Part shown: piece after piece, positions 1 through 6,095 of the stretch | Numbering within the stretch: the stretch's first letter is position 1 | Layout: every line of letters begins with the position of its first letter | Assembly: GCA_003153075.1 (NCBI GenBank) | Contig: PMBW01000147.1 | Location: 1 to 7,524 of the forward strand | Length of the DNA: 7,524 nucleotides | Direction of reading: 5' to 3' | Origin: Dehalococcoidia bacterium | Lineage (GTDB): Bacteria; Chloroflexota; Dehalococcoidia; Dehalococcoidales; Fen-1064 | Made by a program: the position numbers and the translations under genes | Notes under the pieces: model-generated | Told to the model about the DNA's origin: nothing | Databases searched by the model: none | Seen by the model: the letters and a program-made list of their open reading frames with translations, nothing else

Positions 1-1058
1 CTGAGCAGGCCGATGGTTTTCAGCGCGACAGTTTTGCCGCCGGTGTTGGGACCGGTGATCACCAGTATTGAATAATCCTGGCCGATGACGATATCCAGCG
101 GCACCGCGCGGTCGCCGAGCAGCGGATGGCGCGCTTGTTGTAAATGTAAACCCGGCCTTTTCTCCGCGGTAAAGGGCATCATTTGCGGCTCGGTCGCTTT
201 GGCACGGCGGGCGTATTTGGCCTTGGCGAATATGAAATCCAGTTCCGCCGCCAACGTGATATCGCGGCGGATCTCACTGTCATGCAAACCAACTTCCGTG
301 CTCAGACTGGTCAGGATTCGGACAACTTCGCGCCTTTCCTCATTAACCAGTTCGCGCAGTTCGTTGCCCTCCTCCACAGTTTCCCACGGCTCGATGAAGA
401 TAGTGGCGCCGGTATTGGAAACATCGTGCACAATGCCTTTGATTTCATGTTTGGATTCGATCTTCACCGGGATGACATAGCGGCCTTCGCGCTCTGTGAC
501 GATCTGTTCCTGTACGATTTTCTGCCCGCCGGGCGACCGGATAAAACTCTCCAGATTGGTCAGCATGGCATGCCGCTTATTGCGGATCTGCTGGCGTAAA
601 TTCATTAAGTGCGACGAAGCCGAATCCATGATCTCGCCGTCGATAGAGACGCAGGAATCGATGCTTTTTTCCAGCGAACGCAGCTCGGTGATATTCTTGG
701 CAATATCCCATACAGCGGGAAAGTCGACGGCAATTTTATTCAGACTAGAATGCAGATAGCGGATGCTGGAAATAGCCTTCCCTACACCGGCCAGCACAAC
801 AGGTTCCAGAACTTTGCCGCGTGCCGCCAGACCGACCGGCTCCCGGATATCCTCAATGGCATCGATATGGAAATCATGTTCCACAGCCAGTATTTGCCGG
901 GCTTCGTAGGACTGCTTGAAAAGCAGTTGAATTTTTTCATAATTGGAGATTGGAAGAAGGTTGAGCGCCAGCGCCTGGCTGGCAGGGAAAGAGGTATACC
1001 CCGCGATAATTTCCCGCACGCGGTGGAATTCCAGCATTTCCAGGCTTTTTGTATCCAT
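1..1058 (-). CDS. mutS2: Endonuclease MutS2, N-terminal part (truncated by window edge)
   Basis: The frame is open from an ATG at 1058 to base 1, giving the first 352 residues and part of codon 353; the C-terminal half, where this family carries the rest of the ATPase and the Smr nuclease domain, lies outside the window. The start reads MDTKSLEMLEFHRVREII, typical of the MutS2 N-terminus. Residues 336-343 are GPNTGGKT, the Walker A motif of MutS-type ATPases, followed by VALKTIGLL. The middle part is the charged helical core/clamp expected before the ATPase, with the family-like stretch EGRYVIPVK. MutS2 binds branched DNA or collided ribosomes depending on species; it lacks the mismatch-recognition domain of MutS, and none is seen here. 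A GAAGGA ribosome site lies 10 nt upstream. The gene has richer GC than the DNA to its right. Identification is firm; the cellular role in this organism is not. Confidence 0.95.
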   Translation of the reverse strand, partial: MDTKSLEMLEFHRVREIIAGYTSFPASQALALNLLPISNYEKIQLLFKQSYEARQILAVEHDFHIDAIEDIREPVGLAARGKVLEPVVLAGVGKAISSIRYLHSSLNKIAVDFPAVWDIAKNITELRSLEKSIDSCVSIDGEIMDSASSHLMNLRQQIRNKRHAMLTNLESFIRSPGGQKIVQEQIVTEREGRYVIPVKIESKHEIKGIVHDVSNTGATIFIEPWETVEEGNELRELVNEERREVVRILTSLSTEVGLHDSEIRRDITLAAELDFIFAKAKYARRAKATEPQMMPFTAEKRPGLHLQQARHPLLGDRAVPLDIVIGQDYSILVITGPNTGGKTVALKTIGLL

Positions 1059-3240: not shown

Positions 3241-3337
3241 AAGTTGACTCCAATCCTGTTCGATTTAAAAGGTAAATATCTGTGTGTCTGCCGATCCAAA
3301 ACCCATAATTATTGCGAGATCCTGTTGGTGCGTCTAA

Positions 3338-3395
3338 AACCTGCGCCCAATTGACGGATTCTTCCGGCCTTCCCGGTCTAAGAACAATCGGGTCG
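3338..3395 (-). pseudogene. Fragment of an M20 peptidase C-terminus (copy A)
   Basis: Bases 3338-3368 match 5028-5058 of the M20 gene with one mismatch in 31, and 3372-3395 align, diverged, to 5080-5103. Read on the minus strand in the M20 frame it gives YDPIVLRPGRPEESVNWAQV, against DPIILGPGRLEEAHTPEESVNWAQV in the intact gene. A net 18-nt, in-frame deletion removes LEEAHT, including the last metal-ligand histidine. The match stops at CAGGTT; what follows is unrelated to the M20 tail. It cannot encode an enzyme and is a relic of duplication or recombination. Confidence 0.8.
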
Positions 3396-3415: not shown

Positions 3416-4072
3416 TCACTTTTCAAGGGGATAACCAAGTTCTTCCCATCTAAGGATACTCTTCCATAAGACTTTTATATTATTTAGGTCACCTGATCTC
3501 AACTGTATCAATTTTTCTGCCAAACTAGCAGAATCTCCATCATCCGATCAGTCACAATAAAATATTATCATTTTATCACCGGGAAGTGCGGTGAGCTGAT
3601 CGTTGACCCATTGTTGTGTGAAATTGGGAGATGGATCATTGTAAGGAATATTTATGGCTCCTGGTATGTGTCCTGATGTAAAGGAACTGCTAAGTCTGGC
3701 ATCAACCAAAATGAAATCATCGCTTTTATCCATCATCTGCTTGAGTTGTTCACTTAATATTCGAGGTATTTCAGGGAAGATAAAGCCTTGTTTAATAAGA
3801 TCCTCTGGCGAAGGAGGGATCAGTCGTGTCGTCGTCGTTACCGCCGGTGCTATAGCCGTAGTTGTAGCCGGTTTTGTAGCCGACGTTGTAGCCGACGTTG
3901 TAGTCGGTATTGTAGTCGTTTGGGTATACGATTGTATTGGATAAATATGTGTTATTACGGAAAAATAAGTAGTTGAACTGGGCGATTGTTGTATAGAAGT
4001 TGGACTACCGCAAGCAGTAAGAACAAGAGCTGCTAAAATCATCAGGATTGCGATAATCTGTTTTACTCGCAT
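3416..4072 (-). CDS. Rhodanese-domain lipoprotein, candidate selenoprotein (in-frame TGA at catalytic site)
   Basis: A 218-residue envelope sulfurtransferase if TGA is read through. Residues 1-20 are a lipoprotein signal ending LTA-Cys21; 22-88 is a Thr/Ser/Pro linker; the rhodanese domain follows, with VDAR and the hallmark GHIPGAINIPY. The active site reads IIFYCD-TGA-SDDGDSASLAEKL. In rhodaneses the catalytic Cys is followed by five residues and then S/A-A; counting back from SA puts the catalytic residue at the TGA (codon 175, bases 3550-3548), not at Cys173, making a C-x-U motif. After the TGA the frame runs 43 codons to WEELGYPLEK and a TGA stop, a normal rhodanese C-terminus with no decay. 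A SECIS-like hairpin follows the codon. The ATG at 4072 is preferred over a GTG at 4081, because GAGGTG at 4086-4081 lies 8 nt before it. Alternative: a nonsense mutation, giving a dead 174-residue product. Confidence 0.75.
3515..3533 (-). promoter_or_regulatory. SECIS-like hairpin downstream of the in-frame TGA
   Basis: On the mRNA, UUCUGCU pairs with GGCAGAA (7 bp, the top pair U-G) around the loop AGUUU. The stem starts 14 nt and the loop 21 nt after the UGA. Bacterial SECIS elements are known to have a short apical loop with G in the first two positions, often followed by U, about 16-37 nt after UGA; this one fits. No bulged U like that of E. coli fdhF is seen. Pairing is read by eye, not by energy calculation. 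Confidence 0.6.
3862..3921 (-). repeat. 12-bp tandem repeat coding the Thr-rich linker
   Basis: Five successive 12-bp units, on the plus strand TTGTAGCCGACG and variants, two of them identical (3874-3885, 3886-3897). On the coding strand they give four-residue steps of the type T-T-S-A or K-P-A-T. Units of 12 bp keep the frame, so copy number can vary without harm to the rhodanese domain. Confidence 0.8.
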
Positions 4073-4110: not shown

Positions 4111-4140
4111 ATTGTAGTCCCACTCATTATCAGGTGTCAA
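4111..4140 (-). promoter_or_regulatory. Promoter of the rhodanese lipoprotein gene
   Basis: On the minus strand TTGACA (4140-4135), an 18-nt spacer and TACAAT (4116-4111) form a near-consensus sigma-70-type promoter about 40 nt before the ATG at 4072. It shows the gene is transcribed on its own rather than only by read-through, and argues mildly against a dead gene. Confidence 0.65.
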
Positions 4141-4252: not shown

Positions 4253-4324
4253 CTACAAACTCAGCGCGAAATTCAAATAGATTTCGGCGGCTTCCTGGAC
4301 TTGCACTGCTGGGTCCTTACTCAT
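4253..4324 (-). pseudogene. 23-codon frame ending in a copy of the M20 C-terminus (copy B)
   Basis: An ATG at 4324-4322, overlapping the end of the membrane-protein gene, opens MSKDPAVQVQ and then EAAEIYLNFALSL with a TAG stop. The last 13 residues are identical to the end of the M20 protein, because 4254-4294 is an exact 41-bp copy of 4984-5024. The first ten codons are unrelated to M20. I take it for a displaced 3' end rather than a working gene, though translational coupling to the gene above is possible. Confidence 0.7.
4254..4294. repeat. 41-bp direct repeat, left copy
   Basis: Identical over 41 bases and in the same orientation as 4984-5024, the 3' end of the M20 gene. The pair encloses the membrane-protein gene, with repeat starts 730 bp apart. 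Confidence 0.95.
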
Positions 4325-4982: not shown

Positions 4983-6095
4983 TTACAAACTCAGCGCGAA
5001 ATTCAAATAGATTTCGGCGGCTTCAATAACCTGCGCCCAGTTGACGGATTCTTCCGGCGTGTGCGCTTCTTCGAGGCGCCCCGGACCCAGTATGATCGGG
5101 TCGACACCGTCCGACCAGAGGATATTGGCATCGGAATGGCTGCGGAAATCCTGCGGTTCCCACGGCAATACCATTTGCTGATATATTTTTTGCAACTTCT
5201 GCACTAATAATCGTTCGTTGGAAATGCGGTAGCCCGGGCGTGCTTCCTCAAAACGCAGCACAGCATCGAGGCCAGGAATTTCCTTCCCGGCTTTTTCCAC
5301 CAGGTGTTCCAATTCCGTCTTGAGCGTATCAATTTTAGAATGCGGCGGCAGGTGCAGATCGACGTAAGCCTCACAGGTATCCGGCACGACAAACCCGCTG
5401 GGGAACCCCGAAAGCTCGCGGATATTATAGACCAGACCGTGCGCACTGGTGGTGGCGTAATCGGTGACCCGCAAGAGCAGTTTCAGCATCGACTCGATGG
5501 CGTTTTGCCCCAGTTCCGGCATCGACGAATGCGCCCGTTTGCCGTGGGTGCGTAATAACACTTCCAGGTAACCGTAGTGCCCCAGGCAGACCCCCAGATT
5601 GGTCGGCTCCCCCACCAATGCCCAGGGAAAACTGTATTCACGTGCAAGTGTCTTGGCGCCGCTGTTATCTTCTTCTTCCCCAACGACCAAAGCCAGTCCG
5701 ACAGCAGGCAAATCGTTGTTATTGGCGTGCAGCGTAGTGAAAGCCTCGATCATGGCGGCGCAGCCGGCTTTCATATCCGCCGTGCCCAAACCGTAGATCT
5801 TGCCGTCGTCCTCCGAGAAACCGAAATCATCCAGGTCATAAGCTGCGACAGTATCCAGGTGCCCCACATAGCAAAGGTCGACGTTCTCATCTTCGGGCAG
5901 CACCAGCAGGTTGTAACGGTTCTCATCCACTTCCTCGCGGATGACCGGCAATCCCTGACTTTTTAGATACTGCTCTGTATACTCCAGCACTTCCTCTTCC
6001 TTGCCGGAAGGACTGTAGATATTGACCAGCTCTTTGAGCAGGTTTTTCAGCCGCTCCGGCTGGATTTCTAATAGATTACTATCTGTGTCCGCCAA
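4983..6095 (-). CDS. M20 family zinc peptidase/deacylase (ArgE/DapE/LysK-like)
   Basis: A 370-residue cytoplasmic metallohydrolase of the M20 family, which removes acyl or aminoacyl groups from amino acids or cleaves small peptides; sequence alone does not fix the substrate. With the TTG start, the metal-site motifs are GHLDTV (His79, Asp81), GTADMKAG (Asp107), GEEED (Glu140/141), GEPT (Glu163) and EEAHTPEES (His345), all intact. GKRAHSS (His189) marks the dimerisation domain. Length is normal. The start is chosen at TTG 6095 because AAAGGTG lies 7 nt upstream and the protein then opens MADTDSNLLEI; an in-frame ATG at 6161 adds 22 residues (GQRTIIARDY...) unlike the family and has GGAAAG directly against it. 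It is probably co-transcribed with the GNAT and marC genes. Its last 41 and preceding about 75 coding bases recur elsewhere in the window. Confidence 0.88.
   Translation of the reverse strand: MADTDSNLLEIQPERLKNLLKELVNIYSPSGKEEEVLEYTEQYLKSQGLPVIREEVDENRYNLLVLPEDENVDLCYVGHLDTVAAYDLDDFGFSEDDGKIYGLGTADMKAGCAAMIEAFTTLHANNNDLPAVGLALVVGEEEDNSGAKTLAREYSFPWALVGEPTNLGVCLGHYGYLEVLLRTHGKRAHSSMPELGQNAIESMLKLLLRVTDYATTSAHGLVYNIRELSGFPSGFVVPDTCEAYVDLHLPPHSKIDTLKTELEHLVEKAGKEIPGLDAVLRFEEARPGYRISNERLLVQKLQKIYQQMVLPWEPQDFRSHSDANILWSDGVDPIILGPGRLEEAHTPEESVNWAQVIEAAEIYLNFALSL
4984..5024. repeat. 41-bp direct repeat, right copy (3' end of M20 gene)
   Basis: Exact partner of 4254-4294. It codes the last 13 residues (EAAEIYLNFALSL) and reaches into the stop codon, so recombination at this repeat leaves the M20 protein unchanged. 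Confidence 0.95.

Follow-up and report, generated by a model that had tools for sequence, protein, structure and literature searches.

An in-frame TGA codon in a gene for a rhodanese, a putative lipoprotein, is, to judge from sequence comparisons, very probably decoded as selenocysteine (Sec). The gene lies in a stretch of DNA of 7,524 nucleotides, here termed the window, and the codon occupies the catalytic position of the rhodanese active loop. The original prediction, that UGA codes for Sec (U) at a C-x-U site, is supported by a stop position shared across the family, by coding constraint that extends past the TGA, and by a hairpin that follows it in register. The features concerned are collected in Table 1.

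Table 1. Features of the rhodanese gene and its flanks (window positions)
Feature	Position	Strand	Basis or remark
Gene for the rhodanese (putative lipoprotein)	3416..4072	(-)	218 residues with TGA175 read as selenocysteine
Putative signal peptide with lipobox LTAC, residues 1-21	4010..4072	(-)	motif match, no predictor
Rhodanese domain, residues 108-210	3443..3751	(-)	PF00581 and AlphaFold2 model
In-frame TGA, codon 175, proposed Sec codon (C173-D174-U175)	3548..3550	(-)	catalytic position
Terminal TGA, codon 219	3416..3418	(-)	identity to P0003 drops beyond this codon
Apical hairpin of the proposed bacterial SECIS, UUCUGCUA-GUU-UGGCAGAA	3515..3533	(-)	bSECIS model, covariation
Hairpin core: stem 3531-3527 with 3521-3517, loop 3526-3522	within 3515..3533	(-)	
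Promoter-like TTGACA-18-TACAAT, upstream of the gene	4111..4140	(-)	consensus match only, 11/12

The gene and its product

Read on the minus strand from 4072 to 3416, the gene proceeds from its ATG through the motif LTAC at residues 18-21, which we take to be a lipobox, and a Thr-rich linker to the rhodanese domain. The domain matches PF00581 with an E value of 4.2e-14 and 53.3 bits (Pfam gathering score, 22.2), and we class the window protein as a rhodanese by its fold. In an AlphaFold2 model, in which Cys replaces U, residues 173-178 lie between a strand (168-172) and a helix (179-191).

As predicted, the frame continues from FYCD-TGA for 43 further codons with no other disruption, codon 175 being the sole in-frame stop ahead of the terminal TGA. 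The predicted spacing was also found: between U175 and S181-A182 lie five residues, which places the TGA at the catalytic position. The in-frame UGA stands where homologues carry Cys, as is characteristic of selenoproteins, and Cys173 is nearly invariant among the homologues.

The ortholog P0003 has W at codon 175 and again at codon 219 in its source translation, as would be expected of a table-4 translation if both codons were TGA; we observe the TGA codon itself in the window and infer it in P0003. The latter protein runs past codon 219 into sequence homologous to window positions 3415-3251. Ahead of codon 175, 77 of 89 residues of the domain are identical in the two proteins; from there to the second TGA the count is 41 of 43, and past it 18 of 32. 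The last two values differ (Fisher P 8e-5), such that the drop occurs at the second TGA rather than at the first. The stretch after TGA175 (41/43) shows no significant excess over the one before (77/89; Fisher P 0.14). By this comparison, coding constraint evidently continues through TGA175, and we take the TGA at codon 219 to be the true stop of the gene.

Distribution of the stop position in the family

One protein search provided 36 homologues and another, with alignment, 190 among 7994 scored candidates; the best 120 of the 190 were considered. The alignment comprises 122 proteins, i.e., the window protein and 121 of the 123 found (P0036 and P0037 were left out). The original prediction had proposed comparing codon 175 among homologues: among the matches listed, 71 of the 122 aligned proteins end exactly at YC[DAG], one residue before the catalytic position (as judged from protein ends only), and 37 carry Cys at that position. 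The remaining rows are P0003 (W), the window (U) and 12 that show neither pattern. Relatives that end at the site contradict, as to the stop position, the possibility that this strain alone carries the TGA. Two members of the family, P0046 and P0078, are named Dehalococcoidales.

A tree was built from the 87 columns before the site and included 110 of the 122 rows; the other 12 show neither a stop at YCx nor YCxC, and 53 of the 105 inner branches are unresolved. With 73 stop-type and 37 Cys-type rows, 8 changes of state are needed, and branches with good support force at least 3 of these. Measured by tree path, the window's five closest neighbours (P0002, P0004, P0003, P0008 and P0049) all end at the site or read W, and the Cys forms are more distant from it. 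Given the 71 protein ends, the 37 Cys forms and the 8 changes on the tree, the stop position is widespread in the family and has been exchanged with Cys several times. By pattern match only, a strict lipobox occurs within the first 45 residues of 22 of the 71 stop-type proteins, and a hydrophobic run followed by Cys within the first 50 residues of 61 of 73 rows.

Four proteins end one or two residues short of the usual point: P0034 and P0114 at FY/VY, just before the first Cys, and P0035 and P0115 at YC, right after it. In these proteins Sec may occupy the position of the first Cys or the one directly after Cys.

Relation to known rhodanese selenoproteins

Five forms of rhodanese selenoprotein have been described, of which form 3 is CxU (NF041203), forms 1, 2 and 4 are UxxS or UxxG, and form 5, TsoB (NF045694), is UxxxxU (PMC13188914). 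Sec-containing rhodanese-related sulfurtransferases have also been reported in marine metagenomes (PMC1088965, PMC2398784). Thus, the prediction of a Sec rhodanese is supported but is less novel than it implied, since CxU rhodanese selenoproteins were already described.

The best NCBIfam match of the window protein is NF041203 (rhodanese_LYCAU), with 50.6 bits; the match spans profile positions 19-125 of 126 and includes the YC-x-U/C motif as FYCDU. The TsoB model gives 30.8 bits against a cut-off of 805. As the NF041203 score lies below the curated cut-off of 115, the window protein is, by its profile scores, a new subfamily of a known kind, nearest to NF041203. We also searched for NF041203 in 148 genomes of the phylum, presumably Desulfobacterota, to which G002 belongs (the genome of locus L002, a Syntrophaceae record). 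Matches were found in 126 of these genomes and exceeded the cut-off in 21; of the 30 matches over the cut-off, 28 hold one or two TGA codons.

Like NF041203, the window protein has a single rhodanese domain with C-x-U at the same place, both kinds have Cys versions, and in the NF041203 genes examined a hairpin follows the TGA in the same register. Unlike NF041203, the window protein carries a putative lipoprotein signal and a long Thr-rich linker, and it is probably from Dehalococcoidales, whereas the NF041203 loci examined are from another phylum. Forms 1, 2, 4 and 5 share with it a rhodanese domain with Sec but differ in their Sec motif or have a fusion architecture (PMC13188914). In our alignments, the solved structures 3tp9 and 6mxv have Cys in place of Sec and lack the extra C-x before the catalytic residue. 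The same presumably holds for GlpE (1gmx).

Titles and abstract openings in the literature on Dehalococcoidales or Chloroflexi selenoproteins and NF041203, in a collection outside which most subscription journals fall, did not reveal the subfamily. No relative was found in viral contigs with the A1 and P0001 queries, the A4 query found one distant viral locus (23% identity), and plasmids gave no match. The genome contigs yielded only two distant loci, L001 and L002. In L001 at 8220 and L065 at 363, rhodanese-like frames have their active-loop TGA further from the Cys (YCGGPTU and YCSGSTU, respectively).

The hairpin downstream of the TGA

A hairpin of bacterial SECIS shape at the right distance had been predicted, and one was found at 3533-3515, with GU in a loop that begins 22 nt after TGA175 (21 nt if the loop is read as AGUUU). 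The bSECIS model, as given in the legend to Fig. 2 of PMC13188914, calls for a loop of 3-9 nt with a G in its first two positions, a stem of 4-16 bp, a spacing of 16-37 nt and an MFE of at most -7.5. The window hairpin, with a stem of 8, the loop GUU, a spacing of 22 and -7.6 kcal/mol, passes the strict model, narrowly on energy. As background, the model is passed at 215 of the 14,928 positions in the window, by 4 of its 266 TGA triplets and by 30 of the 2000 synonymous resamplings. Folding energy alone is ordinary, being equalled or bettered in 115 of 400 such resamplings.

For comparison, 63 sources were scanned for the site, of which 40 were usable (35 TGA, 5 Cys) and 23 had no site by the pattern used; some of the 23 hold a TGA within their NF041203 match. 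In our own contiguous-stem version of the bSECIS test the window passes. At other loci, 36 TGA sites were tested and 14 pass (the 36 include two chance pattern matches, L013 at 751 and L027 at 355); of eight Cys-pattern sites, three of them chance matches, one passes.

Covariation was assessed in 33 of the 37 TGA-pattern sites, i.e., the window and 32 TGA-bearing homologues of another phylum, in a gapless alignment from the TGA; L001 and L065, with their longer spacing, and the two chance matches were excluded. Over these 33 genes, 98.2% of the stem cells are paired, 17 are changed on both sides, and the covariation score is 0.327, each of these values being reached by none of 500 shuffles. 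Stem pairing in slid versions of the alignment is 21-59%. Two further measures fall within the range of the shuffles: pairs with a double change (388/500 as high) and further pair types (462/500). Pair 20-34 is G-C in 25 sequences and C-G in six, including the window; by eye, Ser181 is coded by TCN rather than AGY in five of these six. In the five Cys homologues, 60% of the same stem is paired, and L068 keeps all five pairs (by eye). The hairpin is thus evidently common, in register, to the related family, where it covaries.

When the window was left out of the sequences behind a covariance model, the model's best match in the window was 3550-3503, at 19.4 bits, followed by a match of 5.7 bits. 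A sequence-only model gives the site 7.6 bits and second place, after 967-989 (+). Since this model ranks another place first, and since the covariance model gives higher scores to two of the five Cys homologues (L068, 36.5 bits; L035, 27.3 bits) than to the window, part of the score derives from coding homology. Rfam at gathering thresholds gave no match in the window.

Alternative explanations

A sequencing error or a recent nonsense mutation, named in the original prediction as the simple rival, would make the gene a pseudogene by a single base change from Cys to TGA; Cys homologues do exist, and remnants of another gene lie nearby. Recent mutation fails because the five nearest rows on the tree all end at the site or read W, with the Cys forms further off. 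The same stop position in 71 of the 122 aligned proteins, the 8 state changes (at least 3 forced) and the conservation of the codons past the TGA (41/43) likewise stand against a pseudogene, which we consider very improbable. The 71 database entries that end at the site speak for a functional short form, a conserved protein ending at FYCD with the TGA as a real stop. Such a product, however, would lack the catalytic residue along with the part of the active loop that follows it, as well as the final 43 residues of the fold, and it would account neither for the conservation of the 43 codons that follow nor for the bSECIS-type hairpin after the TGA; there is very little chance that it is correct.

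Genome-wide reassignment of UGA, such as the reading as Trp implied by the source translation of P0003, would explain the W at both TGA positions of that protein. Among the aligned homologues, however, Trp at the site is confined to P0003, and Cys stands there in 37; in the six other complete window genes that were checked no in-frame TGA occurs, and Trp, present in five of them, is encoded by TGG; and the last codon of the gene is itself a TGA, beyond which conservation falls. Reassignment is therefore hardly credible, and decoding of TGA175 as Sec remains our preferred reading.

Host lineage and selenocysteine machinery

The M20 peptidase encoded beside the rhodanese gene has a Dehalococcoidales protein as its first named match (83%); its other named matches, among those listed, are Chloroflexi, Chloroflexota, Dehalococcoidia or just bacterium. 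The gene probably belongs to an uncultured Dehalococcoidales bacterium. Another member of this order, Dehalogenimonas alkenigignens, is reported to have selC, genes for Sec synthesis and for a Sec elongation factor, and a selenophosphate synthase that itself contains Sec (PMC4918011). According to PMC4959059, Sec is annotated in many anaerobic dehydrogenases of Dehalococcoidales, and the single-cell genome of one member gave no evidence of Sec enzymes.

For the comparison loci, a tRNA-Sec match over the cut-off was obtained in G001 and G002, and also in 5 of 14 control genomes; SelB exceeded its cut-off in nine of the ten genomes tested. The tenth, G011 (locus L045), has a TGA-type rhodanese but only weak SelB matches below the cut-off, which may reflect an incomplete assembly or another reading of the codon.

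Genomic surroundings

The original prediction also credited the gene with a strong promoter of its own. A consensus match is present (Table 1), but the number of such promoter-like sites in the region is 2, against 2.7 expected in shuffles. The neighbours comprise two ORFs without Pfam matches, an acetyltransferase-like protein, the M20 peptidase, a GNAT and a MarC protein, and no partner gene for the rhodanese was identified among them.

Portions of the M20 peptidase gene, from its 3' end, are copied at window positions 3330-3395, 4254-4294 and 4984-5103 (41 nt at 100%, 39 nt at 90% and 37 nt at 70%). The copies flank the rhodanese gene and its upstream side, and the downstream remnant is also present in P0003; the region looks as if it arose through duplication and insertion. 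At 3-1058 (-), a long open frame runs off the left end of the window. Its sequence is suggestive of the Walker motif of MutS2, but this reading is unconfirmed, as Pfam gave no match for the frame.

Proposed function and implications

The gene would encode an extracytoplasmic rhodanese of one domain, tethered by a lipid anchor; SelB would insert Sec at its UGA codon 175 under the direction of the hairpin 21-22 nt further on. On the outer side of the membrane, the selenolate at this position would take up sulfane sulfur, or else react with an oxidant, and would be resolved by Cys173, two residues away. We infer this enzyme function for the window protein, and find it reasonably likely that the selenolate serves as the active-loop nucleophile in this manner outside the cytoplasmic membrane. 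A broader proposal, which we offer only tentatively and regard as rather doubtful, is that a large cell-surface family of Sec rhodaneses, with Dehalococcoidales at its centre, serves an extracytoplasmic selenium or sulfane-sulfur chemistry undescribed for the phylum. Within this family the site would have alternated repeatedly between Sec and Cys, and it may have moved as well.

If the Sec reading is true, 71 of the protein clusters examined, some of them in NCBI, are truncated at the catalytic residue, and a family rule could restore these entries. The family would then add a lipid-anchored form, found in Dehalococcoidales, to the CxU rhodanese selenoproteins, and its repeated exchange of Sec and Cys, if true, would provide a set with which to study what a rhodanese site gains from selenium.
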